A stretch of 26,358 nucleotides of DNA from a virus (IMGVR_UViG_3300031669_000208:1-26358), one strand, 5' to 3'; shown: positions 371-18,145, counted from the first letter of the stretch. The notes: generated by a model from the letters alone, not told the origin. Numbers and translations: made by a program.

Positions 371-378
371 TATAAATA
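371..378 (+). promoter_or_regulatory. T4-type late promoter box TATAAATA before the first GIY-YIG gene
   Basis: Exact TATAAATA ends 4 bases before the ATG at 383. If transcription starts about 6 bases downstream, as at T4 late promoters, the mRNA would start at or within the start codon, giving an almost leaderless message. There is no good SD between box and ATG; the only purine run, AAGAG, lies upstream of the box. Function is inferred. Confidence 0.5.
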
Positions 379-382
379 CAAT

Positions 383-1039
383 ATGACAAAAGCATTCTTA
401 TATAAATGGACTGAAATATCAACAGGTATGTGGTATCGAGGATCACGAACAGCAAAAAATTGTCACCCAGATGATGGTTATATCTGTTCAAGTAAAATAG
501 TAAAACCAAAAATATTGGCAAATCCATCTGATTGGGTTAGAGAAATAGAATGTATCGGAGAGTCTAAATATATACTTGAATTAGAAGCTAAATATCTGAA
601 AACATTAGATGCTAGAAATGATCCTATGTCATATAATCAACATAACGGAAATGGGCATACTGGATATGGTATCAAGGGTTCAAAAGGTCCACAGAAAAAT
701 CCATATAAAGGGCCAAGAAATGGACATGTTGGAATCAAGGGCCCACGCGGTCCACAGAAAAAGCCATATAAAGGGCCAAGAAAGACACCTTGGAATAAAG
801 GAATGATTCTTGGTCCAAAAGGTCCAAAAGGACCACAGAAAAATCCATCAGGCCCACGCGGTCCACAGAAAAATCCACATAAAGGGCCAAGAAAGACACC
901 TTGGAATAAAGGAATGATTCTTGGTCCAAAAGGACCACAGAAAAATCCATCAGGCCCACGCGGTCCACATAAAAATCCACATAAAGGGCCAAGAAAGACT
1001 TGGACTTGTATAGATGGAAAAAGAATATATAAAGGATAA
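383..1039 (+). CDS. GIY-YIG family homing-type endonuclease with expanded Gly-Pro-Lys repeat tail
   Basis: The 218-residue protein starts with a GIY-YIG-type domain in which the first motif is LYKW and the second is WYRG (Y18-G20), followed by R22, an ELE helix near residue 68 and SYNQHNGNG near residue 84. These match the phage GIY-YIG proteins with a G-MWY-GSR signature and the second copy at 9045. From about residue 94 to 210 the chain is low-complexity repeats of GPKGPQKNP, GPRGPQKNPHKGPRK and TPWNKGM. It ends WTCIDGKRIYKG, which matches the end of the second copy. The TPWNKGM pieces resemble NUMOD-type DNA-binding motifs, so the tail may be an amplified DNA-contact region. Expected role: site-specific cleavage and self-spread. 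Whether it is still active is unknown. Confidence 0.75.
   Translation: MTKAFLYKWTEISTGMWYRGSRTAKNCHPDDGYICSSKIVKPKILANPSDWVREIECIGESKYILELEAKYLKTLDARNDPMSYNQHNGNGHTGYGIKGSKGPQKNPYKGPRNGHVGIKGPRGPQKKPYKGPRKTPWNKGMILGPKGPKGPQKNPSGPRGPQKNPHKGPRKTPWNKGMILGPKGPQKNPSGPRGPHKNPHKGPRKTWTCIDGKRIYKG
705..999 (+). repeat. In-frame tandem repeats in the GIY-YIG tail
   Basis: Units beginning ATAAAGGGCCAAGAAA start at 705, 768, 879 and 981. The spacings are 63, 111 and 102 bases, all multiples of three. The two long units (768-878 and 879-980) are nearly identical except for loss of a 9-base GGTCCAAAA unit and a few substitutions. This is a recent, frame-preserving expansion. Confidence 0.85.
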
Positions 1040-1043
1040 TATA

Positions 1044-1508
1044 ATGCGACTATATCAAACAGGTGGATTTACAGGAGTGCATTCAAAGATAAGTAAAAAC
1101 AAAGTAACTTATGTGGTATTCACAGACGACGAAAGAAACACAATCAAGAACCTACAAGCAGCACTAAAAGAGATACAAGTAGAACAAAAAAGTCTCGGTA
1201 AAATAACAAGATGGAATAAGTTAGACGACGAAGCACTTGACGAAATACTTATGTGGCCACTGCCATTAAAAGATGGTGGAAAACACACAGACTTGTCAGT
1301 TGATCAAATAGATAAGATAGATAAGATGCTTACCAAACTCAATATAGTAGATATGGAACCACTATTAGACTTATTGGGATTTACTCTTGACACAGAAGAA
1401 CCAATGACGGACAGAGAAATGCGAAAAGAGATGGATCGCCGTCGGGAATTGGCAGCAAAACACAAAGCAGAAACAAGTAGATTCGGTATGCTCTTCAGGA
1501 TAGAATAA
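1044..1508 (+). CDS. Hypothetical protein, 154 residues
   Basis: I chose ATG at 1044 because AAAGGA lies about 7 bases upstream. An in-frame ATG at 1014 lies inside the preceding gene and has no SD. The product begins MRLYQTGGFTGVHSKISKNK and has a beta-rich N-terminus, then a charged helical middle (NTIKNLQAALKEIQVEQKS, VDQIDKIDKMLTKL) and a charged C-terminus (DREMRKEMDRRRELAAKHKAE). No signal peptide or membrane segment is seen. I do not recognise a family. It follows the GIY-YIG gene with a short overlap of signals and precedes another unknown gene by one base, so the two are probably co-translated. Confidence 0.75.
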   Translation: MRLYQTGGFTGVHSKISKNKVTYVVFTDDERNTIKNLQAALKEIQVEQKSLGKITRWNKLDDEALDEILMWPLPLKDGGKHTDLSVDQIDKIDKMLTKLNIVDMEPLLDLLGFTLDTEEPMTDREMRKEMDRRRELAAKHKAETSRFGMLFRIE

Positions 1509-1509
1509 G

Positions 1510-1824
1510 ATGGCACACAATAACTTTAGTTTCGACGAACAACTCAGAATATTCAAAGCACTGTCGCCGACTATATCAGAATGTAAAACCAAATATATAG
1601 AATCTTATTCTTTATTCGATTTACTCAGAGAAGATTCACAGAGAGCAATCTCGATGTATCAGCCAATGAGAGAGATTCAACTCTGGGGTATGATTAAGAG
1701 ATATTATGAAAAAGGACTAACAGTAGAAGAAACAATAGAATACGCAAAGATAAGTCTAAAGCAAACAAACGATAGATTGATTAAAAATATAAATACAACT
1801 ATGACAACAGAGGAATCACAATAA
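1510..1824 (+). CDS. Hypothetical helical protein, 104 residues
   Basis: It starts one base after the previous stop and its own stop overlaps the next ATG (TAATG at 1822-1826). The protein is mostly helical and charged: DEQLRIFKALSPTISECKTK, SLFDLLREDSQRAISMYQPM, GLTVEETIEYAKISLKQTND. No family is recognised. Its last codons contain a TATAAATA box at 1788, so the 3' end doubles as the promoter region of the next gene. Tight coupling on both sides and the position at the head of the fibre module suggest a virion or assembly role, but this is only inference. Confidence 0.7.
   Translation: MAHNNFSFDEQLRIFKALSPTISECKTKYIESYSLFDLLREDSQRAISMYQPMREIQLWGMIKRYYEKGLTVEETIEYAKISLKQTNDRLIKNINTTMTTEESQ
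1788..1795 (+). promoter_or_regulatory. TATAAATA late promoter box inside the end of the preceding gene
   Basis: Exact TATAAATA, 28 bases before the ATG at 1824. The predicted start lies near 1801, leaving a leader of about 23 bases that includes GAGGAA as SD for the gene at 1824. Inferred from match and position. Confidence 0.5.
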
Positions 1825-2219
1825 TGGCAACTATCATCAATGCCTTACCACAAGAAACTGACTTTAATATAATGCAAGATAGCACCTTTATCTGTAATAT
1901 ATCTGTCCTGGATACTTATGGTATCGCCTTAGACTTAACTGGATATGACATTCAGGCAGAGTTTAAGAGAGCATATACTGGATCAGCAGTCATAACAGCA
2001 AATATAGCAAACGGGAGTATCAAAGTGTCGTCTCCCATAACCGGTAACATAACTTTAACTCTATTGCCAACAGATACAGCATCAATATCACCAGTAAATC
2101 AATCAGATGACACGATTGAGTTACTTTATGACATTTCGTTGATTAGTTCAACAACTCCGCAAGTAATACTAACCCCTACTTTCGGCACACTGAACATACA
2201 ACGAAAGATAACAATATAA
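1824..2219 (+). CDS. Baseplate/fibre-associated protein with BppU-N-like beta domain, 131 residues
   Basis: The protein has the pattern seen in many small phage tail-associated proteins: FNIMQDSTFICNISVLDTYG, then DLTGYDIQAEFKR, a central beta segment ending NITLTLLPTDTASI, then IELLYDISLIS and a C-terminal GTLNIQRKITI. This layout (polar start, DLTGY-A-I, then YD-I with a closing beta strand) is typical of BppU N-terminal-like domains, which attach adhesin devices to the tail. The gene opens the fibre module, starts from an overlapping TAATG and has GAGGAA as SD. It ends inside the next promoter box. The fold assignment is from motif pattern only. Confidence 0.55.
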   Translation: MATIINALPQETDFNIMQDSTFICNISVLDTYGIALDLTGYDIQAEFKRAYTGSAVITANIANGSIKVSSPITGNITLTLLPTDTASISPVNQSDDTIELLYDISLISSTTPQVILTPTFGTLNIQRKITI

Positions 2220-2222
2220 ATA
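2215..2222 (+). promoter_or_regulatory. TATAAATA late promoter box before the gene at 2241
   Basis: Exact TATAAATA overlapping the previous stop codon. The predicted start near 2228 leaves a 13-base leader that begins with AAGGAG, a perfect SD, before ATG 2241. The compact promoter-SD-ATG arrangement supports function. Confidence 0.62.
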
Positions 2223-2240
2223 TAATCAAGGAGAAACACA

Positions 2241-2642
2241 ATGTCAATATCAGTATATTTAGCAGATAAGTTATTGGATCATCAGAACGGCAAAACTGCC
2301 TATACTATGCCAACAGCATATATTGCTTTATCTTCAACAACACCAGCAACAGACGGAACAGGCGTAACCGAACCTACAGGTGGCTCTTATGCTCGAGTAG
2401 CAACATCTTCTGCCACTTGGAACGCAGCAGCAGCAGGGTCAGTGACTAACGCAGCAGCAATCACATTCCCAGCAGCAACCGCAGATTGGTCAGCAGGTGC
2501 TAATATGACTTATGGCGTTATTTACGATGCTGCAACGGCAGGCAATATGCTATCTTTCGGCGTATTAACAGTAGCAAAGAATGTTCTCAACGGCGACACA
2601 GCATCTATCGCTATTGGTGGAATAACAATCACATTATCTTAA
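2241..2642 (+). CDS. Phage virion-associated protein of the YLADKLLDH family, 133 residues
   Basis: The protein begins MSISVYLADKLLDHQNGKTA and continues YTMPTAYIALSSTTPATDGT, GGSYARVATSS-TWNAAAAGS, AAAITFPAATADWSAGA, YGVIYDAATAGNMLSFG, then GDTASIAIGGITITL. This is a very widespread phage family found beside tail-fibre genes and usually annotated as a structural or tail-fibre-like protein. It is predicted all-beta with no membrane segment. It has its own TATAAATA box and a strong SD (AAGGAG), suggesting high late expression, which suits a decoration or fibre subunit. The exact virion location is unknown. Confidence 0.7.
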   Translation: MSISVYLADKLLDHQNGKTAYTMPTAYIALSSTTPATDGTGVTEPTGGSYARVATSSATWNAAAAGSVTNAAAITFPAATADWSAGANMTYGVIYDAATAGNMLSFGVLTVAKNVLNGDTASIAIGGITITLS

Positions 2643-2662
2643 TAGTAAGATAACCTGAACCA

Positions 2663-2687
2663 GGGTGGGAGTAGAAATGCCTCACCC
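2663..2687 (+). other. Intergenic GC-rich hairpin
   Basis: GGGTGGG (2663-2669) can pair with CTCACCC (2681-2687), including one G-U pair, around an 11-base loop. There is no T run after it, so it is not a classical terminator. It lies between two fibre-module genes; the next gene has AGGAG at 2696. It may slow read-through or protect the mRNA. Confidence 0.45.
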
Positions 2688-2706
2688 GCAAATATAGGAG
2701 TATTAA

Positions 2707-3672
2707 ATGGCAGATAATGTCTCAATAAAAGACTTTGGTGGTAATGCCGCAGTCATTGCAACAGATCAAGTAACAGATGCTACCCTCGGAACAGTAGAAG
2801 TTCAATATATGAAGTTGATGGACGGAACCATCGACTCTACAAACAAGCTTGTTATAGATAGTTCTGGTCGCCTACAAGCAAACATTGGTAACTTACCAAC
2901 AGACTTGGCTGTGTCAGGAACAATCACGGCACTGTCACAGACTATATCCATACCCACTTCCGAGACACAAACAGTGGGTGTTCAAATAAGTGGAACCTGG
3001 TCAGGATCACTTACTCCAGAAGTATCTATAGATGGAACAACATATTATCCTATAAACTTCGTAGATACTGGAGGTGGGTTATTGGGAAATACCTGGTCCG
3101 CAAACAATCTCGGACAAATAAATGTTGGCGGCACATTATACTTCAGAGTAAGAGCAAGTGCTTGGAGTAGCGGAACAGCAACAATATCGCTAAGAGCAAC
3201 TTCCCGTTCGTCGGTTATTTCACTTAATGAATCATTGCCACAAGGATCAAATACTATTGGTGCAGTGTCCCAATCAGGAACCTGGAACATTGGATCAATA
3301 ACAACAATGCCAACAACCCCAGTTACTGGAACATTCTGGCAAACAACACAACCAGTAAGTGGAACTGTAGGAATAACAGGCACAGTAGCAACAGCAGAAG
3401 TTCCTCCAACAACAGTAGCACACGCACTTGCGACAGTCACTACAGCAGGAACAAGTGTTCAACTACCAGCAAACACAGCAAAATCAATCACAATTAAAGC
3501 ATCAACCACAAATACAGGGATTATATATGTAGGCGGATCTACTGTGTCGGCATCAAATGGATTCCCCCTATATGCTGGCGACACTGTGTCATTAGATATA
3601 AGTAACACAAGTGTGATCTGGATTGACGCTTCAATAAATGCTCAAACAGCAAACTGGATAAGCAATGAGTAA
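2707..3672 (+). CDS. Beta-rich tail or virion surface protein, 321 residues
   Basis: The protein starts MADNVSIKDFGGNAAVIATD and has an N-terminal segment of the type found in phage appendage proteins (TDQVTDATLGTVEVQYMKLM, then IDSSGRLQANIGNLP). The middle (about 85-170) is a Ser/Thr/Gly-rich beta sandwich: GVQISGTWSGSLTPEVSIDG, LYFRVRASAWSSGTATISLR. The C-terminus (about 235-321) has VTTAGTSVQLPANTAKSITI, NTGIIYVGGSTVSAS, LYAGDTVSLDISNTSVIWID, a small beta domain common at the end of phage virion proteins. No membrane segment or catalytic motif is seen. It overlaps the start of the fibre gene by 8 bases, suggesting coupled translation and a shared appendage. Confidence 0.65.
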   Translation: MADNVSIKDFGGNAAVIATDQVTDATLGTVEVQYMKLMDGTIDSTNKLVIDSSGRLQANIGNLPTDLAVSGTITALSQTISIPTSETQTVGVQISGTWSGSLTPEVSIDGTTYYPINFVDTGGGLLGNTWSANNLGQINVGGTLYFRVRASAWSSGTATISLRATSRSSVISLNESLPQGSNTIGAVSQSGTWNIGSITTMPTTPVTGTFWQTTQPVSGTVGITGTVATAEVPPTTVAHALATVTTAGTSVQLPANTAKSITIKASTTNTGIIYVGGSTVSASNGFPLYAGDTVSLDISNTSVIWIDASINAQTANWISNE

Positions 3673-5257
3673 AACTAACGCAACTTCAAAAACAATCAAC
3701 ATTCCTGGTAATGCTGGCACTGCAACCGACGCAACCAACGCACACTATGCAGTCGCAGGCAAGAACGTAGCTTTAGCTTCAGATACAAACCTACAAACTT
3801 GGGCTGATAGTCTGCCAAGATGCGGGATGTATGATGTTGGCTTGTCAGTGGCGCAAGGAAACTTACCTGCTGCTTTTTGGTATATTGAGTTGCAGCGTTA
3901 TTCAAGTGACGCTGCTGGAAACTTATACCATGTCATCACTGCAAAAGGCCTGGATGGATCAGGATCAGGATTAATGTATACGAATACTTGTTATTATGGA
4001 ACTTGGACAGGATGGATACAGGTTGTCACGTCGATTGCTGGCACAGCAACCAACGCAACCAATGCTATTAACGCGACTACGGCGACCGCAGCAAACGGCC
4101 TTAATTCAGCAACGACCACTGTTGGAGTTTCAACTGCCGCAGCACCAACAGTGGGGCAAGTGCTAACGGCAACATCAAGCACAGCGGCAACTTGGCAAAC
4201 ATCGTCATCGCCGTCAATGTTCCGCAACCGCATCATCAACGGAGATATGTCAGTAAGTCAGGTGAATGGTGGAACTACGGTTACTCTTACTACCATTGGG
4301 TATGTTACTGACATGTGGACTGCGTCATTAAGTTCAGGCGGGCTAAACTGTATTTCAGCACAACAAGTTGTAGATGCTCCTCCGGGATTTAAGTATTCAA
4401 CTAAATTTACCGTTACTAACCAACACGCTCCGGGGGTTGGAGAACCATTCTACTTCCAACAACCAATTGAAGGTCAGAACATTATTGATTTTGGATTTGG
4501 AACAGCCTCTCCTAAAACTATCGCAACTGGGCAGTGGATTAAAGGGAGTGTTCCGGGAGTCTACAGTGTTTCAATAAGGAGCGGCACGGCTGATTACAGT
4601 TATATTGGGACAGTCAACGTAACAACCTCGTGGACTCAAGCCGTGATTACAATAGTAGGAACATCTTCTGGAACTTGGCCTACAGATAATACGACAGGAA
4701 TGCAGTGGGCATTGGATTTAGGTTCTGGCTCAAACTTCAACACCACTGCTGGTTCTTGGCAAGCAGGTAACTACTTCAACACCACAGGTTCAGTTACCTT
4801 CGTCAATCAAGTAGCAGGCTCAACCCTCAACATCACAGGAGTCCAGTTAGAGAAAGTGCCAACAGGTGCAACCACTGGAACTGACTTTGAGTTTCTTCCT
4901 GATGATGTGGTGTTGATGAGGTGTCAGAGGTATTTACAGCCACTCGGTATAGCTGGAAATGAAGCACCGATAGGAATAGGATTTGGAATAGGCTCGGGCG
5001 CAGTTGTTACTCAGAGCGAATTTAATCCACCTATGCGAACTGCGCCCACTGTAAGTATTATTGGTTCAGCAGCAAGTATATATATGACAACAGCATCCAT
5101 CGCAGCATACGCTTCTTCGGGCATAACTGCCGTAATAGCAAGCCCAACTGGATGTAACTATCAGTTGAGTGGCCCGACAACATTCCCGATTTATTCCTGC
5201 GCACATATTCGGAGTGCCGCAGTTGGCACAGCAATACTGGCAGACGCGAGACTATAA
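3665..5257 (+). CDS. Tail fibre / receptor-binding protein, 530 residues
   Basis: The N-terminal region has two Ala/Asn/Thr-rich segments, GNAGTATDATNAHYAVAGKN near residue 15 and GTATNATNAINATTATAANG near residue 125, typical of trimeric fibre shafts. Between them is the block TWADSLPRCGMYDVGLSV through YGTWTGWIQV, a common fibre unit. From about residue 185 comes MFRNRIINGDMSVSQVNGGT and DMWTA, then a jelly-roll-like C-terminal region ending TGVQLEKVPTGATTGTDFEF and MRCQRYLQPLG. NRIINGDM-V-Q with VQLE-G-TDFE and CQRYL is the signature of many phage fibre C-terminal carbohydrate-binding domains. The likely role is host receptor recognition. The last 100 residues (after CQRYL) probably form the variable tip. 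Confidence 0.8.
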   Translation: MSKTNATSKTINIPGNAGTATDATNAHYAVAGKNVALASDTNLQTWADSLPRCGMYDVGLSVAQGNLPAAFWYIELQRYSSDAAGNLYHVITAKGLDGSGSGLMYTNTCYYGTWTGWIQVVTSIAGTATNATNAINATTATAANGLNSATTTVGVSTAAAPTVGQVLTATSSTAATWQTSSSPSMFRNRIINGDMSVSQVNGGTTVTLTTIGYVTDMWTASLSSGGLNCISAQQVVDAPPGFKYSTKFTVTNQHAPGVGEPFYFQQPIEGQNIIDFGFGTASPKTIATGQWIKGSVPGVYSVSIRSGTADYSYIGTVNVTTSWTQAVITIVGTSSGTWPTDNTTGMQWALDLGSGSNFNTTAGSWQAGNYFNTTGSVTFVNQVAGSTLNITGVQLEKVPTGATTGTDFEFLPDDVVLMRCQRYLQPLGIAGNEAPIGIGFGIGSGAVVTQSEFNPPMRTAPTVSIIGSAASIYMTTASIAAYASSGITAVIASPTGCNYQLSGPTTFPIYSCAHIRSAAVGTAILADARL

Positions 5258-5259
5258 CT

Positions 5260-5688
5260 ATGAACACTAACTACACATATCAACTCACCCAATACACATC
5301 AATCCTTCGCAGCGACGGAGCGTCTATTCCTCCTGACCCTGCGAATCGTGACTATGCAGAATACCTTGCTTGGATAGCAGCAGGAAATACTCCAGATCCT
5401 GTGCCACAACCTACAACTGCTCAAATAATCGCATCACTTGAAGCAGATGTGAGCAAATATATAGACTCAATAGCACAGAAGAAAGGTTATGACTCAGGAG
5501 TATCTTGTGCTTCTTATGCGGCAAGCACAAACGCAACTTTTGCCGCAGACGCTAAAGCCTTTATTGCTTGGAGAGATTCAGTATGGACAACCTGTCAGAC
5601 TATTGAGAATACAGATTTGGCCGCAACACCGCCAATAGTGCCAACCTCTGCCCAAGTAATCGCAGCACTTCCAGCCGCACCGTGGTAA
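5260..5688 (+). CDS. Tail fibre-associated protein (assembly or fibre tip chaperone type), 142 residues
   Basis: The N-terminal half contains ILRSDGASIPPDPANRDYAE and YLAWIAAGNTPDPVPQP, a motif seen in proteins encoded straight after phage fibres. The C-terminal half has DSIAQKKGYDSGVSCASYAA, NATFAADAKAFIAWRDSVWT and TCQTI, a module (RGYD-I-SA-TYA-S-P-F-AE---WRD-VW) found in many fibre-adjacent phage proteins. It lies two bases after the fibre stop and two bases before the next gene. A chaperone or fibre-linked structural role is likely. The exact function of this module is not known to me. Confidence 0.65.
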   Translation: MNTNYTYQLTQYTSILRSDGASIPPDPANRDYAEYLAWIAAGNTPDPVPQPTTAQIIASLEADVSKYIDSIAQKKGYDSGVSCASYAASTNATFAADAKAFIAWRDSVWTTCQTIENTDLAATPPIVPTSAQVIAALPAAPW

Positions 5689-5689
5689 T

Positions 5690-6949
5690 ATGTCACTCCT
5701 GCTCTTATTTAATCCAACTGGAGAAACAAAGGGTTTAGTATTTAATATACCCGAATCAGAATCTGTATCTGCGACATTAAATAGAGTAAGGGTAGAAAAC
5801 TTCACGATCAACGAAACAGGAACAATAACTCTTTCGGCAATAAGAGCCAGAAAGAATATATTCACTGTTTCTGAAACATCTTCTGAATCATTCTCAACTA
5901 ATAGAAACAGAAAGAATATCTTTGCTGTGTCTGAAACAACTTCTGAATCATTCTCAACTAATAGAAACAGAAACAACTCATTTACTATAACAGAATCAGA
6001 AACAGCAACCATTGCTCTAAATAGATTAAGAAATACTACTCTTAACTTAGCAGAGACATTTAACTTCACATTATCTCTTGCGAGACTAAAACAACTAACA
6101 TCAACAACAACAGAAGCATCCTCTACGACTTTCGGCGCATTGCGTAGAACAAGAGATATAACATCAACCATCGCGATGATACTTACTGAAGTAGAAACAC
6201 TATTGGTAAATAGATCGTTGGGATTCACATCAACAGAACAAGAAATAATATTAGTAACATTGTCTGAAGTAAGAGCAATGTCGGCAACAATATCTGAAAC
6301 ACAAAATACAGAAATATTGTCAGTGTCAAGAAACAGAGCAGTCACCTCAACTATAAATGAGTTAGAATCTGTGACCATAACACTAAATAGATTGTCGTTA
6401 ATGACTTATATAATAAACGAAGGACCACAAAACGAATCATTCTATCTCAATAGAGCAAGAAAGATCGACTTTACCAACAACGAACTACAAGATGTGATCG
6501 CATCGTTTAATAGATCACGAACATATCTAACAAATATCAACGAAACATATTCAACCGCAACGATAGATTGGAGAAGAATAAGAACACAGGTATTAAATAT
6601 TGCCGAAACACACAACACAGAAATAATCGCACTTAATAGATTAAGAGATATAATACAGTCTATTTCAAGCACACTTGACATAACATTTATTGTTTATATC
6701 ACAGGCAGGAGCCAAATACCTAACAAGGCAACTATATCCTGGAGTGAATGGCAGAATACTGCACACGGATACCAATATGTGTTAATGTCAAAAGTGGTAA
6801 GTTTCAATCCTAATAACAAAGTATCAGTTACTTTGCCCGACTCAGTCGCACAAACAACCACAACACAACTAACCAATATAGGTTCGGCATCTTTAATAGC
6901 AAATGACAAATACGACACCTTCGTGATTATGCCGAAAAGTTTCTTGTAA
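5690..6949 (+). CDS. Repeat-fibre protein: about fifteen 20-residue repeats plus C-terminal domain, 419 residues
   Basis: From residue 17 to about 337 the protein is built of degenerate 20-residue repeats with the pattern F/L-T-I-x-E-[TS]-x-[ST]-x-[ST]-[IF]-x-x-x-R-x-R. Clear units include FTVSETSSESFSTNRNRKNI and FAVSETTSESFSTNRNRNNS. Alternating hydrophobic residues and a conserved Arg pair suggest a beta-solenoid or stacked-strand fibre. The last 80 residues are non-repetitive (KATISWSEWQNTAHGYQYVL through DTFVIMPKSFL) and may be a tip or capping domain. No signal peptide, membrane segment or catalytic motif is seen. Position directly after the fibre genes and before a new promoter box suggests a second appendage or a fibre extension. 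I do not know a named family for it. Confidence 0.7.
   Translation: MSLLLLFNPTGETKGLVFNIPESESVSATLNRVRVENFTINETGTITLSAIRARKNIFTVSETSSESFSTNRNRKNIFAVSETTSESFSTNRNRNNSFTITESETATIALNRLRNTTLNLAETFNFTLSLARLKQLTSTTTEASSTTFGALRRTRDITSTIAMILTEVETLLVNRSLGFTSTEQEIILVTLSEVRAMSATISETQNTEILSVSRNRAVTSTINELESVTITLNRLSLMTYIINEGPQNESFYLNRARKIDFTNNELQDVIASFNRSRTYLTNINETYSTATIDWRRIRTQVLNIAETHNTEIIALNRLRDIIQSISSTLDITFIVYITGRSQIPNKATISWSEWQNTAHGYQYVLMSKVVSFNPNNKVSVTLPDSVAQTTTTQLTNIGSASLIANDKYDTFVIMPKSFL
5738..6700 (+). repeat. 60-base coding repeats (20 residues each)
   Basis: The repeats are mostly protein-level, but 5851-5910 and 5911-5970 are almost identical 60-base tandem units that differ at only a handful of positions. 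That points to a recent duplication on top of older diverged copies. Some units near residue 160-200 carry short insertions or deletions. Confidence 0.75.
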
Positions 6950-6953
6950 CACG

Positions 6954-6961
6954 CATAAATA
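6954..6961 (+). promoter_or_regulatory. CATAAATA late promoter-like box
   Basis: One mismatch from TATAAATA, four bases before the ATG at 6966. The context CATAAATACAATATG matches the arrangement at 371-385, where TATAAATACAATATG precedes the GIY-YIG gene. The predicted mRNA start falls at the ATG. Confidence 0.42.
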
Positions 6962-6965
6962 CAAT

Positions 6966-7037
6966 ATGACCAGTAGAGCAGAATACCAACGAGAATACTA
7001 TAATAAGAGGAAAAAAGAAAAAAATCACAACCAATGA
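6966..7037 (+). CDS. Possible 23-residue leader peptide or remnant
   Basis: ATG 6966 to TGA 7035-7037 encodes MTSRAEYQREYYNKRKKEKN plus three residues. The stop overlaps the ATG of the next gene (ATGA at 7034-7037), a typical coupling arrangement. The EYQREYYNKRK segment is a basic helix like those at the start of small phage DNA-binding proteins. It may be a coupling peptide, the stub of a lost gene, or not translated. It follows a CATAAATA box by four bases. Confidence 0.35.
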   Translation: MTSRAEYQREYYNKRKKEKNHNQ

Positions 7038-7456
7038 CCACAAGAGTAAAATACAAAAGACTAACAAAAGATGAAATGATTCAAAAGTTCTTTAGACTAA
7101 ACCACTATACACCCGATATGATGATCGCATTCTATTCATTGCAAAAAGATCATCAGAAAAAAATCATCAAGAAACAAGAACAACTACCATACAACCATCA
7201 ACCCATCCATAACCAAGAACTAATAAATAAAATGGATAAATACACTAACCGACTTATATCAAGAACAGAAACAGAAGATTCGATTCATATAGGTAACGGG
7301 TTATTCGAAAAAAGAGAAGTAACAATAACAAACAAAAAAATCTACCAATATATAGACAAAACAAGATCTTATATAGAAATAACAGAACAAATATATGAAT
7401 CACAAGGAGAAGAATCATCCAATACGAATATTATTGCCAACACTGCAAAAAACTAA
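7034..7456 (+). CDS. Hypothetical protein, 140 residues
   Basis: The protein is polar and charged: MTTRVKYKRLTKDEMIQKFF, then RLNHYTPDMMIAFYSLQKDH, a middle rich in N/Q/K and a C-terminal part VTITNKKIYQYIDKTRSYIE. No family is recognised and no membrane segment is seen. Its last codons GCA AAA AAC TAA contain A AAA AAC, a classic -1 slippery heptamer, directly before the stop. The next gene's frame is -1 relative to this one and is open there. A frameshifted extension of 78 residues is therefore possible. No SD better than GAGGAAAAAAG (about 16 bases upstream) is seen, so translation may depend on the small upstream frame. Confidence 0.6.
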   Translation: MTTRVKYKRLTKDEMIQKFFRLNHYTPDMMIAFYSLQKDHQKKIIKKQEQLPYNHQPIHNQELINKMDKYTNRLISRTETEDSIHIGNGLFEKREVTITNKKIYQYIDKTRSYIEITEQIYESQGEESSNTNIIANTAKN

Positions 7457-7985: not shown

Positions 7986-8354
7986 ATGGATTATCAGAGA
8001 ATATATGCTAACTTAATCTCGTATGCCGAAAGAACATACTTAACCGGTTATAGAGAAAAGCATCATATTATTCCAACTTCACTTGGTGGAACAAACTCAC
8101 CAGAAAATCTCGTCTATTTAACATTGAGACAACATCTGATGGCACATTTACTATTATATAAGATGGGACACGGCAACCAGATCTTCTCTGTAGAATGTAT
8201 GCTAATAGATAGTCTCAATCCGAACCACCGAAGATACCATAAGATAAAATGGAAGAGATTATATAGAAAACTCATCACCTTACAAAGAGCGAAGGTAAAT
8301 CTGGAACAAAAAAGACAACAAGTAGAAGAAAGACAAAAGAATCAACATATATAA
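7986..8354 (+). CDS. HNH homing endonuclease, 122 residues
   Basis: The protein carries a clear HNH core: YREKHHIIPTSLGGTNSPEN then LVYLTLRQHLMAHLLLYKM. H26-H27, N41, H50 and H54 fit the metal and active-site pattern of the T4 mob / phage HNH family (K-HHIIP---GG---ENLV-LT-R-H--AH-LL). The C-terminus is a basic helix (KIKWKRLYRKLITLQRAKVN), probably DNA-binding. It has no intron hallmarks around it that I can see, so it looks like a free-standing homing gene. Start ATG immediately follows the previous stop. The stop codon overlaps a TATAAATA box. It lies between unknown small genes and a truncated ParB-like gene, whose breakage may be linked to homing. Confidence 0.85.
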   Translation: MDYQRIYANLISYAERTYLTGYREKHHIIPTSLGGTNSPENLVYLTLRQHLMAHLLLYKMGHGNQIFSVECMLIDSLNPNHRRYHKIKWKRLYRKLITLQRAKVNLEQKRQQVEERQKNQHI

Positions 8355-8357
8355 ATA
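8350..8357 (+). promoter_or_regulatory. TATAAATA late promoter box upstream of the ParB remnant and terminase genes
   Basis: Exact match overlapping the HNH stop. The predicted start near 8363 is one base before a 13-bp hairpin (8364-8394), so the transcript would begin with a structured 5' end. No other box lies between here and the terminase genes, so this may be their promoter. Confidence 0.6.
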
Positions 8358-10818: not shown

Positions 10819-10826
10819 TATAAATA
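10819..10826 (+). promoter_or_regulatory. TATAAATA late promoter box before portal
   Basis: Exact match in the gap between terL and portal. The predicted start near 10832 leaves a leader of about 15 bases with AAGGA as SD before ATG 10847. Confidence 0.6.
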
Positions 10827-10846: not shown

Positions 10847-12478
10847 ATGGCACAGACAAAACAAAAAGCAATAGCTGGCAAGACAATAACATTCGAAGAC
10901 TTTTTCAGTCCTAATGCTAATGCTGTTCAGAAACTTGTTGATTATTATGAAGGTGATCAACTTGCGTATGTTATTCAGATGCTTGACGGTGGAATGAACG
11001 GATGGGGAAAACGAAAAGAATGGAAACATAGAGGTATTATTCCTCGTGTTAGAAATATAACCCGATCAATCATATCTAAATCAGGTATGTTATTCAATAG
11101 ACCGCCAGTTATGGGAATTGTTACAGATACAGATAAGTTGCCAGTAACAGACCCAGTATTATCTGAAATGCTCGAAAACGCAGATTGGATGGAGGTGATG
11201 CAAAATCTGGATATTTACACTCGACTAACTGGTTCGATTATATTACTACAACAGTTGTCAATCCCAGACGGAGTTACCACAACAAATGGTCAATATAGAT
11301 ACGATCATACTCGCGGCGATCAACTAATAATGACTATCCTTCATCACGGAAATACTGTGGCGAGAATGAATCAAGCAAGAACAAAGATAACCGAACTTGG
11401 GTTTATCCTTGGAGATACGGCACTACAAGGCGGAAATAACTATTCACCAAGACCGAAAGAATGGTCATATTGTGTATGGACACCAGAAGAGATTATCGAA
11501 ATACAGGTAAATGAAGACGCAGACGACTCAAACAAAACAAATAATGACAATCAAATCGAAACAGTCATCAGCAGAGAACCTAACCCATATGGTATGATTC
11601 CAGCGTCATTCTTCTATGACACAAATAAACCTCGTCGTGGAATATGGCAAAGACCAGCAGAAGACTTAATCGCATTACAAGAAGTGGTCAATCTTGCTTT
11701 AACAGACACAGAGTTTGCGATCGCATTCCAGAAACAAAAAACATTATTCATCACTGGTGACATTATCAATGACGACGCAAACTCAGGTGATCAACTTATA
11801 CCAGCAGCACAGATGGGATCTTCGCCAGCAGGAGCAGTATATAATGACATACCATTCTATCAAACAAGAAAGCAATCTTATATTGGTGGTTTAGGTTCAA
11901 TCGCAAAACTTGGATCAGATGGTGACGGAGTGGCAGGAAAAGCAGAGTTTATTGGACCAGACACTAAACTCGGAGAGTTAGATGCGATCATAACAGAATA
12001 TATCGGTTCAGTGGCAAACGACTGGGCAGTAAATATTAACTATGGTGGTTCTGGCAAAGCAACTTCGGGGTTTCAACTTATAGTAGAGGAAATATCAAAC
12101 TTACAACTACGAGAACTTCGCGGACAGTTAATGCAAGCAAATTTACGCAGATTCTACGAAATAACCAAATCAATCTACCCAGGACAACTTACAGACGGAT
12201 ATTTACAAGCACAATTTGCTGCACCGAATCTACCAGTAAATCAGATCGAAGTAGAAAATATCTGGACATTAAAGATTGACAACAACAGAGCGTCAATCAA
12301 AGACTACTTTATGGAAGAAAAGGGCTTGTCGGAAACAGAAGCAATGGAAAAGATTGCCGACATAATGGCAATGAATAAAGAAACAAATATACCACTGCCA
12401 GCAGCACCAGCAATACCTACACCAATAAAACCAGTAGCAACAACAAAGGCAAGCGCAGGAGCAATATTAGCAGGATAA
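10847..12478 (+). CDS. Portal protein (DUF4055-type), 543 residues
   Basis: The N-terminal part has VQKLVDYYEGDQLAYVIQML, WKHRGIIPRVRNITRSIISK and SGMLFNRPPV, typical of portal proteins of the DUF4055 type. The middle shows the wing-like region with EEIIEIQVNEDADDSNKT, then FFYDTNKPRRGIWQRPAEDL, LIALQEVVNLALTDTEFAIA. The clip and stem part includes LGSIAKLGSDGDG and KATSGFQLIVEEISNLQLRE. A C-terminal Ala/Pro-rich tail ends the protein. Portals form a dodecameric ring at one vertex through which DNA enters and to which the tail binds. Position right after terL and before the scaffold gene is canonical. The start has AAGGA as SD. Confidence 0.85.
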   Translation: MAQTKQKAIAGKTITFEDFFSPNANAVQKLVDYYEGDQLAYVIQMLDGGMNGWGKRKEWKHRGIIPRVRNITRSIISKSGMLFNRPPVMGIVTDTDKLPVTDPVLSEMLENADWMEVMQNLDIYTRLTGSIILLQQLSIPDGVTTTNGQYRYDHTRGDQLIMTILHHGNTVARMNQARTKITELGFILGDTALQGGNNYSPRPKEWSYCVWTPEEIIEIQVNEDADDSNKTNNDNQIETVISREPNPYGMIPASFFYDTNKPRRGIWQRPAEDLIALQEVVNLALTDTEFAIAFQKQKTLFITGDIINDDANSGDQLIPAAQMGSSPAGAVYNDIPFYQTRKQSYIGGLGSIAKLGSDGDGVAGKAEFIGPDTKLGELDAIITEYIGSVANDWAVNINYGGSGKATSGFQLIVEEISNLQLRELRGQLMQANLRRFYEITKSIYPGQLTDGYLQAQFAAPNLPVNQIEVENIWTLKIDNNRASIKDYFMEEKGLSETEAMEKIADIMAMNKETNIPLPAAPAIPTPIKPVATTKASAGAILAG

Positions 12479-12486: not shown

Positions 12487-12534
12487 AGCATAGACGGGTG
12501 TTTATGCTAAATAGTAGGGAGTGTGGATGCACTC
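12487..12534 (+). other. Two-hairpin leader element, copy B, before the scaffold gene
   Basis: Hairpin 1: AGCATA (12487-12492) with TATGCT (12503-12508). Hairpin 2: GAGTG (12519-12523), loop TGGATG, CACTC (12530-12534), preceded by GTAGG. The order, the GTAGGG segment and the TGGATG loop are the same as in copy A at 8364-8415, while both stems differ in sequence and still pair. CGGAGA follows as SD before ATG 12556. Confidence 0.6.
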
Positions 12535-12555: not shown

Positions 12556-13170
12556 ATGGAAAACGAAAATCAAGAAGTAACAGCAGTAGATCCAAGAGAA
12601 GTAGCTACTCAAGTAGAAGATAATGCGGATCATATTGACTGGGAAGCAAAAGCAAAAGAGTTAGAGGCAGTTATTGCCAAGCAAGCAGCTCAAAAGAAAG
12701 AAACCGAAAAACAAAGAGATTTACTAAAGCAAAAAGTTAAAACACCTTTAGAAAATCCAGAAGTAACGGCATACTTAAAAGAAGAGTTGGCAAAAGTGTC
12801 AGCACAACAACAAAAGTATGTAGAAAGAGCAAAATCAGGTGCGATCAAAGTTGCCGCTTCATCAAAACTATCGGCAATGGGAATCAATCCACAGGCATTA
12901 GATTTAGCAGTTGCTCAACTTGATAAGAGTCTTGTTCAATATGACGAAGATACAGATTCAGTAGATGATACAGCATTGTCAGCAGCAGTGTCAAAACTAA
13001 AAAGTCAGCATCCGTTCTTATTCGAAAAGACTGTTGGATCACCTAAAGTGAGAACACCAGCAGAAGGATCTTCAAGAGGAGACAGCAACACTATCTCAAG
13101 AGAAGACTGGCAAAATATGACGACAAAAGAACAAAGAGCAGCAATACTGTCTGGTCGTCGAGTGGAATAA
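12556..13170 (+). CDS. Head scaffolding protein, 204 residues
   Basis: The protein is highly charged and helical, with an acidic start (MENENQEVTAVDPREVATQV), a long coiled-coil-like helix (WEAKAKELEAVIAKQAAQKK, ETEKQRDLLKQK, YLKEELAKVSAQQQKYVERA) and a polar C-terminus containing ISREDWQNMTTKEQRAAILS. Small size, coiled coil and location between portal and coat gene are the usual signs of a scaffold, which guides procapsid assembly and is then released. The C-terminal basic bit (GRRVE) could contact coat. No protease motif is seen. Its 5' leader holds a structured element shared with another leader. Confidence 0.75.
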   Translation: MENENQEVTAVDPREVATQVEDNADHIDWEAKAKELEAVIAKQAAQKKETEKQRDLLKQKVKTPLENPEVTAYLKEELAKVSAQQQKYVERAKSGAIKVAASSKLSAMGINPQALDLAVAQLDKSLVQYDEDTDSVDDTALSAAVSKLKSQHPFLFEKTVGSPKVRTPAEGSSRGDSNTISREDWQNMTTKEQRAAILSGRRVE

Positions 13171-13201: not shown

Positions 13202-13209
13202 TATAAATA
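13202..13209 (+). promoter_or_regulatory. TATAAATA late promoter box 1 before the capsid gene
   Basis: Exact match, first of two boxes 38 bases apart. The predicted start near 13215 is followed by a small AT-rich hairpin (ATACT 13218-13222 with AGTAT 13230-13234). Confidence 0.6.
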
Positions 13210-13239: not shown

Positions 13240-13247
13240 TATAAATA
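13240..13247 (+). promoter_or_regulatory. TATAAATA late promoter box 2 before the capsid gene
   Basis: Exact match. The 14-mer TAGAAATATAAATA (13234-13247) is repeated exactly at 16328-16341 before the tail tube gene. The predicted start near 13253 lies at the foot of the hairpin at 13251-13274. Confidence 0.65.
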
Positions 13248-13313: not shown

Positions 13314-14534
13314 ATGGCAAATATTCAAGGCGGAACAAACTATGCAGGAGCAGGTGCAACGACACTGTCAGCACTTATTCCTATCATCTACGAAGCAAGA
13401 GATAAAGTGGCTCGTGAGCCTATTGGCCTTATTCACGCAGCAACACGCGACGCTTCAGAATCACAAGCAGCAGTTGGACAAACAGTAAGAAGCCCAGTTA
13501 CTCAAGCAGCAACATTGACAGCGATTACTCCAAGTAACGTTGTTCCTAATACTGGTGGTCAAACATTGCTTTACAAAGACTTGGTTATTGCCGACTCTTG
13601 GGCAGCTCCGGTTCAGTGGACAGGTGAAGAACAACGCGCAGTTGGAGATAACTACGAAGTTATTGCTCGTGATCAGTTCTCCCAAGCATTTCGTGTTTTA
13701 GATAACAAAATCGAAGCAAGTCTCGTAAATACAATGGTAGCTGGATGCTCCCGCGCATACGGAAATGTATTAGTATCACCATTCACTTATGTCGCAAACA
13801 GCAATTCGTCAATGCTTCCATTCGCAGAACTTAACCTTATCCTGGACAATAACGGAACACCAGATGGCAACCGTGCTCTTATCCTTGGTAACCGTGCTAT
13901 GGCAAATGTTCGCGCAATGCCTAACTTATACAAAGCAAACGAAGCTGGAACAGACGAACTATTGCGTTTAGGCGCAGTGATGGAAGTTGATGGTTTCAAA
14001 TTCTACAAGTCAGGTCAGTTAGACAAAAACGGCCACACAGCAGGAACAGGAACTGGATATGTTACAGACGGAACTGGCGCAGCATCAGGTTCAGTATATC
14101 AAGCAGGCGAAACAGCAATCAAAGTTAAAACAGGCGCAAATGTTATTTCAGCAGGCGACACAGTTACTTTCGCAGGCGACACAAATGTTTATGTTGTTGC
14201 TTCAGGTGTTACAGCAGCAGGTCAGACATTGACTTTAGCAGCACCAGGACTACAACAGTCAGCAGCAGATAGTGTTGCGATCACAGTAGGTGCTTCATAC
14301 TCGCCTAACATTGCTTTCGACCCAACAGCACTTATCCTTGCTTCCCGTGCTCCGATTATGCCAGTAGGTGGCGACGCAGCAACTGATGTGGCAATGGTTC
14401 TTGACGCTATTTCGGGTATTTCTTACCAGATCGCTCAATACAAAGTGTATCGTCAGGTTCACTTCGAAGTTGGTCAAGCTTGGGGTTCATTAGCTAACAA
14501 GCCAGAGTTTGCAGCAATGCTGATCGGTAACTAA
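13314..14534 (+). CDS. Major capsid protein, P22 coat (gp5)-like HK97 fold, 406 residues
   Basis: The N-terminal part ALIPIIYEARDKVAREPIGL followed by the segment to TLLYKDLVIADSWAAPVQWT and GEEQRAVGDNYEVIARDQFS matches the P22 coat-like family, as does NKIEASLVNTMVAG. A beta insertion at about residues 240-330 (YVTDGTGAASGSVYQAGETA, AGDTVTFAGDTNVYVVASGV) fits the I-domain of that family. The C-terminus NIAFDPTALILASRAPIMPV, ISYQIAQYKVYRQVHFEVGQ, AWGSLANKPEFAAML is a very good family match. Codon usage here is richer in CGT and GTT than in neighbours, as expected for an abundant protein. The gene has two promoter boxes, a 5' hairpin, a strong SD and a terminator-like hairpin, so it is a self-contained high-expression unit. 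Confidence 0.88.
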   Translation: MANIQGGTNYAGAGATTLSALIPIIYEARDKVAREPIGLIHAATRDASESQAAVGQTVRSPVTQAATLTAITPSNVVPNTGGQTLLYKDLVIADSWAAPVQWTGEEQRAVGDNYEVIARDQFSQAFRVLDNKIEASLVNTMVAGCSRAYGNVLVSPFTYVANSNSSMLPFAELNLILDNNGTPDGNRALILGNRAMANVRAMPNLYKANEAGTDELLRLGAVMEVDGFKFYKSGQLDKNGHTAGTGTGYVTDGTGAASGSVYQAGETAIKVKTGANVISAGDTVTFAGDTNVYVVASGVTAAGQTLTLAAPGLQQSAADSVAITVGASYSPNIAFDPTALILASRAPIMPVGGDAATDVAMVLDAISGISYQIAQYKVYRQVHFEVGQAWGSLANKPEFAAMLIGN

Positions 14535-14557: not shown

Positions 14558-14598
14558 GAAATACGGCCTCGCTCTTGGCAACAAGGCGGGGCCATTTC
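14558..14598 (+). terminator. Terminator-like hairpin after the capsid gene
   Basis: GAAAT (14558-14562) and GGCC-TCGC-CTTG (14565-14577, one bulge) pair with CAAG-GCG-GGGCC and ATTTC (14582-14598), capped by a GCAA tetraloop. The downstream arm ends in ATTTCAT, a weak U tract. The strong GC stem, the GNRA-type loop and the position between the capsid stop and a new promoter box support termination or mRNA 3'-end protection. Confidence 0.72.
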
Positions 14599-14605
14599 AT
14601 AAATA
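14598..14605 (+). promoter_or_regulatory. CATAAATA late promoter-like box before the connector gene
   Basis: One mismatch from TATAAATA, directly after the terminator-like hairpin. The predicted start near 14611 leaves a leader with AAAAAGGA as SD before ATG 14627. The terminator-promoter order supports it. Confidence 0.55.
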
Positions 14606-15588: not shown

Positions 15589-15589
15589 T

Positions 15590-15901
15590 ATGATAACTGT
15601 AGGCGATGCAATCAAAAGATTAGAAAAGCTCGAAGAAGAGTTTGAAACAGAGTTTCTCGAAAGAGTAAAACAAAGAACACCAGTGTCAAAGCAAGATAAG
15701 GGTGATGTAGGACGACTACAAAAAGGTTGGTCGTGGGAAGACGACGGCAAAGATGGCAAAAGAGTATTCACAAATGAAGCACCGTATGCGATATTCGTAG
15801 AACAAGGAACACGATATATGTCACCAACACTAATGGTAGGAACCACAATACTCGAATCAGAAGATATATTAAAGAAAGCATTAGAGAAGGTTGGATTATG
15901 A
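15590..15901 (+). CDS. HK97 gp10-like neck / tail completion protein, 103 residues
   Basis: The sequence has the family pattern: N-terminal helix IKRLEKLEEEFETEFLERVK, QRTPVSKQDKGDVGRLQKGW (matching RTPVDTG-LR-SW), FTNEAPYAIFVEQGTRYMSP (matching V-N---YA--VE-GT--M-P) and a C-terminal helix. Members join head and tail. Its last bases overlap the next ATG (ATGA at 15898-15901). Confidence 0.8.
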   Translation: MITVGDAIKRLEKLEEEFETEFLERVKQRTPVSKQDKGDVGRLQKGWSWEDDGKDGKRVFTNEAPYAIFVEQGTRYMSPTLMVGTTILESEDILKKALEKVGL

Positions 15902-16320
15902 GTTATATAAATACGCTAGATATACAACAAACATTAGATGGTCAGCTATTAACCATATCATCTTTGCCAACATTGTCAGTAGAGAATACTCAGACGGTTC
16001 AAGCAGGAATAACACCATATTGCCGTTCGACTTTAGCGCCAGCAAAGACAACACTATTGACTATGGGCAGCAAAAAAGGTATGAAGCAAACCGGATTATA
16101 CCAGGTTGATTTATTCTATCCAACAAACTATGGATATATGGATCATAGGAAAATGTCAGATCTTATTATTGCGGCATTCCCCCCAGGAACACTTACTTTG
16201 TCAACAGGAGAGAATCTGATTATACTTTCGGCGTGGTCACAACCAGGAAGAAATGTTCAAGACGCATTCCTACAGGTTCCGATACAAATCGAGTGGGTTG
16301 CTTATACAATACCACAGTAA
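15898..16320 (+). CDS. Tail terminator protein, 140 residues
   Basis: The protein has SYINTLDIQQTLDGQLLTIS, ENTQTVQAGITPYCRSTLAP, QTGLYQVDLFYPTNYGYMDH and LSAWSQPGRNVQDAFLQVPI, then QIEWVAYT. This fits the tail-terminator-like family (related to DUF4128), which caps the tail tube and joins it to the neck (typical features: R-TL-P, QRG-Y-V-v--P-G-G-------A--I---F). Order between gp10-like and tail-tube genes is canonical. A TATAAATA octamer falls at 15906 inside the third codon region but reads as normal coding sequence. Confidence 0.72.
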   Translation: MSYINTLDIQQTLDGQLLTISSLPTLSVENTQTVQAGITPYCRSTLAPAKTTLLTMGSKKGMKQTGLYQVDLFYPTNYGYMDHRKMSDLIIAAFPPGTLTLSTGENLIILSAWSQPGRNVQDAFLQVPIQIEWVAYTIPQ

Positions 16321-16333
16321 AAAGCAGTAGAAA

Positions 16334-16341
16334 TATAAATA
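16334..16341 (+). promoter_or_regulatory. TATAAATA late promoter box before the tail tube gene
   Basis: Exact match within the 14-mer TAGAAATATAAATA that is identical to capsid promoter 2. The predicted start near 16347 leaves a 16-base leader with AAAGGAG before ATG 16363. Confidence 0.65.
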
Positions 16342-16362
16342 TACAATAAAGGAGACATTACT

Positions 16363-17271
16363 ATGTCAGCAGTCATTTCAAGCGGTATCTTTACAAAACT
16401 ATTATATGTGCCAGAAGCAACCTTCGACACTCTCCCAGCAACACCTACAATGATTGACATTCCCTTCGTTGATTGCTCACTGTCTCCTGATATTACTAAA
16501 GTCACAGACAATATCATTCAAGGTGACACAATGCACCGTTATGTTGTTCCTACGACACAAAAAGTAACAGGAACTATCTCAGGCGAAGTATCTCACACAC
16601 AAATGGACTGGTTATTGGAAGGTGTATTCTACAGCACATTCACATCGAATGTATTGTCAGTAGGTTCGACGCAATCCAGTTATTCATTAGAGATTGGCGC
16701 AACAGACATATCACAATATACTCTATATTCTGGAGCAGTGGTAGATAAGTTGGCATTAACATTCGCACCAGCAGGACTCGTTACCTACAAAGCAGACTTA
16801 GTAGGAGCAAGTTTCTCAATGGGAACAGTAACTAACGCAAATACAACCACAGCAGCACCACACTTTGCTCCATTGACAACAGTAAATGCCACAATCAAGG
16901 CAAACGGCGCTAATGTAGGTTGGATTACTGGTGCGACAATCACATTCGACAGAAAGACAACGGTCAATTATGCTCTTGGAAATGCAACGCCAAGAAGTAT
17001 GAGCACATCATTCTTTAATGCTTCCGGAACATTAGATTTGTTTTTCGAAGATGAAATTGCTTTCGGATACTTCAAAGACAATACAGCAAGTTCATTAGAT
17101 TGGACATTAACAGACGGAACAAACACATATGAACTATTATTGCCTAATATGTATTACGAAACATTCTCAGTGAATGTGACAAGTGCTGGTCCAATCAAAG
17201 TAAAGAGCAACTTCAGTGCTGTTTATGACCCAACAACAGCAACAGTGGCAAAAGTAACTCGTTCTTCATAA
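16363..17271 (+). CDS. Major tail (tube) protein, 302 residues
   Basis: The protein begins with ISSGIFTKLLYVPEATFDTL and has the tube pattern: TGTISGEVSHTQMDWLLEGV near residue 70, a duplicated half with NVGWITGATITFDRKTTVNY near 185, ASGTLDLFFEDEIAFGYFKD and a C-terminal beta part PIKVKSNFSAVYDPTTATVA. Two repeated tube-fold halves (G-isGe-s----d-ll and a--i--aS-Tl-lff-D) are typical of siphovirus tube proteins of about 300 residues that form trimer-derived rings. Own promoter, strong SD and a clear terminator behind it mark it as a high-expression unit. Confidence 0.8.
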   Translation: MSAVISSGIFTKLLYVPEATFDTLPATPTMIDIPFVDCSLSPDITKVTDNIIQGDTMHRYVVPTTQKVTGTISGEVSHTQMDWLLEGVFYSTFTSNVLSVGSTQSSYSLEIGATDISQYTLYSGAVVDKLALTFAPAGLVTYKADLVGASFSMGTVTNANTTTAAPHFAPLTTVNATIKANGANVGWITGATITFDRKTTVNYALGNATPRSMSTSFFNASGTLDLFFEDEIAFGYFKDNTASSLDWTLTDGTNTYELLLPNMYYETFSVNVTSAGPIKVKSNFSAVYDPTTATVAKVTRSS

Positions 17272-17292
17272 TACAAGAACTAAAGCAATAAG

Positions 17293-17318
17293 AAAAGCCA
17301 GTCTCCGGACTGGTTTTT
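17293..17318 (+). terminator. Rho-independent terminator after the tail tube gene
   Basis: AAAAGCCAGTC (17293-17303) pairs with GACTGGTTTTT (17308-17318), 11 bp with one G-U, loop TCCG. The right arm ends in five T, and the left arm begins in A, so it may work in both directions. Confidence 0.88.
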
Positions 17319-17324
17319 CATGAG

Positions 17325-17332
17325 CATAAATA
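17325..17332 (+). promoter_or_regulatory. CATAAATA late promoter-like box before tail chaperone genes
   Basis: One mismatch from TATAAATA, six bases after the terminator, 25 bases before ATG 17358. AGGAG at 17344 is the SD. Same terminator-then-box layout as after the capsid gene. Confidence 0.55.
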
Positions 17333-17357
17333 AAATATAACATAGGAGAAATGAAAT

Positions 17358-17804
17358 ATGTCATTCAGCATCACAGAACTAAAAAACAAACCATTAGAGA
17401 TGATTCTACAACATCCTCTAACAAAAAAGCCGATTAAGAACCCAGAGACTAAAAAAGAGGTTATCTTCCTCATTGTGAATCAGGATAGTAAATCATTCTA
17501 TGACGCACAATATGAAGCACAAGCAAAACTTCGTCAAATCTACGAAGACACTAAAGTATTACCTACACCAGAACAAACAAGAGAAGCAACCTATGTGATG
17601 GTATCAAGTCTGGTTGTTGGCTGGACAACAGACACAGAAGAGTTTCTGTCAGAAGAGTTGGGAGATGACTCAAAGTATTCAAAAGAAAATGCCTTTAAGA
17701 TTCTGTCAAACGACGACTATTTCTGGATTGTCAAACAAGTGGAAGAGTTTATTGCGGACAAAACTCGCTTTTTCAAGACGCAGTCAATCAAACCTGTAAA
17801 ATAA
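17358..17804 (+). CDS. Tail assembly chaperone, G-type, 148 residues
   Basis: The product starts MSFSITELKNKPLEMILQHP and has a central KEVIFLIVNQDSKSFYDAQY and REATYVMVSSLVVGWTTDTE, the common layout of lambda gpG-like tail chaperones (short beta start, then helices with VVGW). Its neighbours are the tube gene and, in the -1 frame, a second frame leading to the tape measure gene. In lambda, gpG and the frameshift product gpGT bind the tape measure and tube subunits during tail assembly. The last codons are CGC TTT TTC AAG, where the -1 frame is open for more than 60 bases on each side. Confidence 0.78.
   Translation: MSFSITELKNKPLEMILQHPLTKKPIKNPETKKEVIFLIVNQDSKSFYDAQYEAQAKLRQIYEDTKVLPTPEQTREATYVMVSSLVVGWTTDTEEFLSEELGDDSKYSKENAFKILSNDDYFWIVKQVEEFIADKTRFFKTQSIKPVK
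17768..17774 (+). promoter_or_regulatory. Candidate -1 frameshift site CTTTTTC
   Basis: In the G frame the codons are CGC TTT TTC. A -1 slip gives CTT TTT and then CAA GAC GCA, which stays open to the end of the T frame at 18145. It is not a perfect X-XXY-YYZ site, since the first base is C. The exact slip site is uncertain; the need for a shift is better supported than this position. Confidence 0.4.
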
Positions 17805-17821
17805 TAGAATCACAGGTTGAG

Positions 17822-18145
17822 TTGGATATGCCGAGAAGTGACGGTTCCACACTGCGACAAGATTTGATTCAACTTCAGAAAATGACCGGCAAAGCAAGCA
17901 AGGAACTTATGCCGGCACTCATACCCTATAACTGTGTGAATGTTTATAACTCGTTTCTCAAATTGAGAAGATCGTCGAGAGGCAATCCTATAACATATAC
18001 CGAAATAAAGGCATATTTAGATGTAACTGGTGACAGACTCTCACCAGGTGAGACACAGGCGATTCTCCTCTGGGATATGGTAAATATAAATAAGGTATAT
18101 GAGTTGCGGAAAAAGCAAGAACTTACTAACATAGAGGATCAATAA
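17822..18145 (+). CDS. Tail assembly chaperone T-domain, likely expressed by -1 frameshift from the G gene
   Basis: This frame is -1 relative to the G gene and is open through the whole G C-terminus. Around its nominal TTG/ATG starts (17822, 17828) no good SD is visible, while the residues before them (QDAVNQTCKIIESQVELDMP in the shifted frame) look like normal protein. Then come STLRQDLIQLQKMTGKASKE, ALIPYNCVNVYNSFLKLRRS, ITYTEIKAYLDVTGDRLSPG and a helical end. This arrangement and position directly before the tape measure gene match the GT system of siphovirus tails. The stop overlaps nothing; the tape measure ATG begins at the next base. Confidence 0.75.
   Translation: MDMPRSDGSTLRQDLIQLQKMTGKASKELMPALIPYNCVNVYNSFLKLRRSSRGNPITYTEIKAYLDVTGDRLSPGETQAILLWDMVNINKVYELRKKQELTNIEDQ
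18085..18092 (+). promoter_or_regulatory. TATAAATA box 54 bases before the tape measure gene
   Basis: Exact match inside the end of the T frame (codons GTA AAT ATA AAT AAG). The position would give a 48-base leader to ATG 18146. It may be an internal late promoter or chance coding sequence; the spacing favours the former only weakly. Confidence 0.4.

Follow-up and report, generated by a model that had tools for sequence, protein, structure and literature searches.

Late transcription of the T4 type has, to our knowledge, been described as unique to T4-related phages. Its promoters are built on the octamer TATAAATA, located at positions −13 to −6, in which the first base is poorly kept (PMC1524935, PMC2988020). 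The late promoter of cyanophage S-PM2 is NATAAATA (PMC2984593), while that of Aeh1, a phage with a diverged gp55, is CTAAATA, counted from −12 (PMC1524935). The T4-like late promoters stand before head and tail genes and lack a −35 element (PMC2988020, PMC2984593, PMC1524935). The 8-bp element of T4 (the gp55/gp33/gp45 system), KVP40, 44RR and S-PM2, which consists of a −10 alone and leaves its first base free, recurs, with the same siting, in a family of phages of a different kind.

The window, meaning the whole stretch of DNA analysed (IMGVR_UViG_3300031669_000208:1-26358; 26,358 nt), is part of a phage genome, and all gene calls are mechanical ORFs. Its plus strand encodes the terminase large subunit (9554-10810, phrog_2), the portal (10847-12478), a head scaffold (12556-13170, phrog_2303), the major capsid protein (13314-14534, phrog_283), a tail tube or minor tail protein (16363-17271, phrog_290) and the tail tape measure protein (18146-20623, phrog_24). 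The portal, which has no match among cultured phages, defines the family. An earlier note, made from the sequence alone, had called the phage a lambda-tailed siphovirus, and the call holds, given the tail-tube/minor tail, tape measure, tail terminator and chaperone genes. Because these siphovirus tail genes are combined with a P22-like coat protein, the phage falls outside the T4-like phages (Straboviridae and kin), and the boxes described below differ from those of T4 in their setting, siphoviruses whose tail genes are lambda-like and whose coat protein resembles that of P22. The window strain also carries two GIY-YIG homing endonuclease genes (367-1013 and 9053-9576). Both are cleanly missing from a sibling strain (L081, 95-99% identical); with the first insertion comes a TATAAATA copy, 4 nt ahead of the start codon, and this box is missing in L081 as well.

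Counted over both strands of the window, TATAAATA occurs ten times on the plus strand and once on the minus strand (9057-9064), whereas dinucleotide shuffles of the window predict 2.64 copies (sd 1.65) for the two strands pooled; the observed 11 copies were reached in none of 100 shuffles. The shuffled-control count proposed in the earlier note thus favours its box array, and its positions for the ten plus-strand copies, the minus-strand copy and three intergenic CATAAATA variants are all exact. Its remark that nearly all boxes lie within 60 bases of a gene start was somewhat overstated: six of the ten plus-strand TATAAATA copies do (60 nt or less), those at 8350, 13202 and 13240 lie within 110 nt, and that at 15906 is just inside a gene.

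All boxes of the array are on the plus strand. In its first part, TATAAATA precedes the GIY-YIG homing endonuclease gene 383-1039 (box 371-378, 4 nt), the gene at 1824 (box 1788-1795, 28 nt) and the gene at 2241 (box 2215-2222, 18 nt). A CATAAATA box (6954-6961), past the stop of the gene 5690-6949, lies 72 nt 5' of the gene at 7034, and the TATAAATA box at 8350-8357, followed by an inverted repeat, lies 89 nt 5' of a ParB-like gene (8447). Among the head genes, TATAAATA stands 20 nt 5' of the portal gene (10819-10826) and twice 5' of the major capsid gene (13202-13209 and 13240-13247), the second copy being followed by a hairpin (GTAGAACAT..ATGTTCTAC). A related, Aeh1-like form overlooked by the earlier note, GCTAAATA, is found at 12506-12513, upstream of the scaffold gene (12556). 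Further on, CATAAATA boxes follow terminator-like hairpins, one directly behind the hairpin and 21 nt 5' of the head-tail adaptor gene 14627 (14598-14605), the other 25 nt 5' of the tail assembly chaperone gene (17325-17332), and TATAAATA lies 21 nt 5' of the tail tube gene (16334-16341) and 53 nt 5' of the tape measure gene (18085-18092). The copy at 15906-15913, within the beginning of the tail terminator gene (15898), is probably due to chance, and further ATAAATA copies inside genes, at 7222, 7235, 20814 and 22001, look like chance occurrences.

The motif also emerges when it is not chosen beforehand. All 7-mers were ranked by intergenic enrichment in the window together with a diverged relative, G005 (L077; 39,706 b), whose portal and coat proteins are 72% and 69% identical to those of the window. 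ATAAATA is the top 7-mer (P 2e-16): 24 of its 42 copies are intergenic, in 7.7% of the sequence, and one is reversed. As a string, ATAAATA read backwards is ATAAATA again, and a reversed-motif control is uninformative for it. In G005, 11 copies of TATAAATA are on the late strand versus one on the opposite strand. Moreover, a minus-strand operon of G005 homologous to the plus-strand genes near 6954 of the window has its box, GATAAATA, on the minus strand, 5 nt ahead of a start codon.

Portal alignments gathered a family of 66 viral loci, most of them metagenomic contigs. An independent set of 58 contigs, without the Sapientia prophage, G005 and the window strain, puts ATAAATA first once more among 7-mers in the regions ahead of genes for head and tail proteins (150 copies versus 11.5 expected, five reversed, P 8e-122). 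A box lies 5' of the scaffold gene in 46 of 50 cases, of the tail-tube gene in 25 of 28, of the small terminase gene (TerS) in 16 of 21 and of the portal gene in 27 of 49, the distance to the portal start being mostly 15-37 nt. The signal is seen also at 57% GC, and it is starkest in the GC-rich locus L133 (56% GC; 12 forward copies, none reverse, 0.04 expected), since composition cannot produce the box there. In orthologous leaders the position of the box is kept, repeatedly directly behind a terminator: the portal-gene box occupies the same position in G005, L078, L010, L012 and L073, and these five genomes and the Sapientia prophage have the terminator-then-box layout of the adaptor gene in common. 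At the level of operons, many units have no box, in a count that rests on crude gene calls. Cultured phages whose coat or terminase proteins are related showed no strand-biased box array. One family member, SAP, is a prophage of Sapientia aquatica, a sequenced isolate; its ends were set by gene order and not by att repeats, and a survey of 392 genomes from the Sapientia family found the portal only in Sapientia itself.

Other genes of the relatives are varied. G005 encodes an Hfq-like protein (L077:13427-13684, PF17209, E 2e-6), a type uncommon in phages, and a 468-aa protein (L077:16201-17607) with no Pfam or PHROG match, in which some stretches (YDIRCCAPTL, LEHDGW) recall, by eye, palm motifs of the family A polymerases. 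The minus strand of L078 (585-3626) carries a gene for a 1013-aa replication protein resembling the RepA type of N15/PY54-like linear plasmid-prophages (phrog_4913). An H-NS-like protein, often adjoining the integrase, is present in nine members (including SAP, G426, G431, G433, G445, G450, G456 and L105), and a protein of 85-90 aa with a GDWGDL motif is conserved in twelve (SAP, G426, G445, G450, L010 and others). The near-universal non-structural genes are those for the integrase, the H-NS-like protein and the small GDWGDL protein, none of which is likely to be a sigma factor.

Some family members replace ATAAATA with a second form, [AG]CTAAATA. Locus L067 contains no ATAAATA but nine forward and no reverse copies of CTAAATA (0.4 expected), which stand 5' of genes, one of them directly behind a terminator. 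At the scaffold gene, [AG]CTAAATA is found in the window, L010, L012, L067 and L082. The octamer had been equated in the earlier note with the T4 late promoter, and the comparison extends to both forms, since TATAAATA/NATAAATA and the Aeh1 CTAAATA are published T4-family promoters. The Aeh1 element (from −12) is thus the second form seen here, in L067, L082 and the scaffold genes of other members, although Aeh1, unlike this family, belongs to the T4-like phages and encodes a diverged gp55 itself.

The surroundings of the boxes also resemble those of promoters lacking a −35 element. No −35 had been apparent by eye, and in an alignment of 35 sites from two phages no position upstream of −1 exceeds 0.25 bit. 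Boxes on both strands track gene orientation, divergent pairs included, and the divergent regions of SAP, L010, L011, L012 and L073 contain two back-to-back boxes ~16 nt apart. Boxes often begin a few bases past the T-run of a terminator, and ahead of the adaptor and chaperone genes the terminator is followed immediately by the box. Many boxes of G005 have a short hairpin (GTAGCAnnnTGCTAC) within a few bases downstream, as expected at the 5' end of an mRNA. G450 has no boxes in its integrase/replication region (72-7330), and the terminase, head, tail and lysis units carry them, which is a late pattern, in one complete genome. In the SAP prophage and G426, boxes occur at some non-structural units too, so their use may not be strictly late. 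G426 also has, in an apparently complete genome, a gene-poor stretch (~24.5-28.9 kb) with several boxes on both strands.

The boxes are probably T4-type late promoters. Each would consist of one −10-like element, N(A/C)TAAATA, and lack a −35, and transcription would start a few bases downstream of it; each head, tail and lysis operon would be driven by a box, often placed right behind the terminator of the previous operon, and the boxes would be read by host core RNA polymerase with a gp55-class sigma. The match to both T4-family forms, a comparison of sequences, seems the strongest pointer to gp55-class recognition: because the two forms are those read by the gp55-class sigmas of T4-like phages, we infer a reader of this class in the window phage. 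Promoter activity and the start site are likewise predicted. The sigma itself might be encoded in the unseen part of the genome, exist in a form too diverged to be recognized, or come from another phage in the same cell.

A gp55-like sigma, predicted in the earlier note, was detected in one relative and not in the other ~70 family contigs. The 6,039-b contig L144 encodes a 153-aa gp55 homologue 38 nt past the portal gene (phrog_234, E 4e-26; hhalign 99.5%, E 4.5e-22, with a profile built without the L144 protein) and has AATAAATA ahead of TerS and portal. This gp55 is closest to proteins of a 90-kb T4-like/jumbo-type contig (46%) and of Pseudomonas phage MIJ3 (40%); L144 is a metagenomic contig, and the end that carries gp55 might be the product of a chimeric assembly. 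Searches with phrog_234, in 8 and then 45 records, found gp55 in L144 only, as did a local gp55 HMM run on every ORF of 35 aa or more, and in hhalign comparisons over 404 non-structural ORFs the next best score after L144 was 12.6%. Sigma70_r1.2 was found in none of seven records, G005 among them, and no Sigma70_r2 protein (PF04542, E up to 10) in the tested viral records or the Sapientia prophage, the only PF04542 matches being on other contigs of the Sapientia host. The earlier note had also invoked the sliding clamp, but a gp45-type clamp (PF02916) was found in none of 32 records. The family therefore differs from T4 in having gp55 in one relative only and no clamp detected in those 32 records, and its start sites are predicted ones. 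In six contigs (G428, G438, G439, G445, G447 and G450) the ends overlap by 121-186 b, with full or 99.5% identity, which usually indicates that a circular assembly is complete. As gp55 is not detectable in these six or in the Sapientia aquatica prophage, and no clamp was found, the reader would be either an undetected factor of the phage's own or, as a bolder reading, the gp55 of a co-infecting T4-like phage. A diverged factor of its own is the most ordinary source.

Such a factor might also be unrelated to gp55: a small early protein, not homologous to it by sequence, could steer the host polymerase to the box. This is a tentative alternative, with less than an even chance by a wide measure, for which candidates exist in a small early protein family beside TerS, lacking a box of its own in nine genomes, a Fis-like HTH protein in five members and the H-NS-like protein in nine. 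However, no non-structural gene was found to be universal among the box-carrying members, the AlphaFold model of the TerS-side protein is confident only for a short predicted three-helix C-terminal domain, and it would take a coincidence for such a factor to converge on both T4-family forms.

Alternatively, the phages may have no late sigma of their own and depend on the gp55-RNA polymerase of a co-infecting T4-like phage to activate their late genes. This would account for the missing gp55, for the two box forms, as if tuned to different helpers, and for three contigs with overlapping ends, G439, G438 and G428, whose non-structural proteins (at least ~75 aa) match no Pfam family of polymerases, primases or helicases at E 1e-3; apparently complete members have neither a detected gp55 nor a clamp, and a silent form exists in the Sapientia aquatica prophage. 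There are precedents. Virophages have late promoters in common with their giant virus, which awakens the integrated forms (PMC6428243); in the mavirus/CroV pair, too, virion genes of one virus are under the late promoters of another and the integrated form is silent, as would be the case here if the helper idea holds. MiniFlayer-type satellites (MiniFlayer, MulchRoom) are small phages of Streptomyces that make their own virions; they have encapsidation genes but no known primases, as seems true of G439, G438 and G428 (PMC10690885), and are not known to share promoters with a helper. Unlike virophages, several box-family members have replication and integration genes of their own (primase/helicase or RepA, integrase), as well as lysis genes, and look autonomous. 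No helper phage has been identified, and undetected replication genes or sigma factors are not the same as absent ones, the scan having covered the larger ORFs and not the smallest. Dependence on a helper is thus unlikely. Its fullest version is doubtful in the same way: a widespread siphovirus family, a prophage included, that would have its late genes under a T4-like late promoter without keeping the late sigma, would express its virion genes only upon T4-like co-infection and, with box forms matched to its helpers, would be a bacterial counterpart of the virophages.

Reading of the box by an alternative sigma of the host is less probable again. It would suit the failure to find a universal phage factor and the eight clear sigma-70-type factors of the Sapientia host. 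However, boxes are rare and unpatterned in the host DNA flanking the SAP prophage, the two box forms track phage lineage, and we know of no standard host sigma with such an element in the absence of a −35. That the box is an RNA-level element (a processing or protein-binding site) and not a promoter is very improbable: it lies in leaders, 15-60 nt ahead of start codons, and in G005, which encodes an Hfq-like protein, is often followed by a hairpin, but boxes that abut terminator T-runs or stand back to back ~16 nt apart leave no room for another promoter.

If the boxes are T4-type late promoters, the T4 promoter code, in both of its forms, is in use in an unrelated siphovirus family, and either a late-sigma system has moved, or arisen anew, outside the T4-like phages, or these phages await a foreign sigma. 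Either outcome would be informative about the mobility and interplay of regulatory systems in phages. This uncultivated family is cleanly marked by the box, and because Sapientia aquatica, which carries the prophage, is a sequenced isolate, the late-gene switch can be tested.
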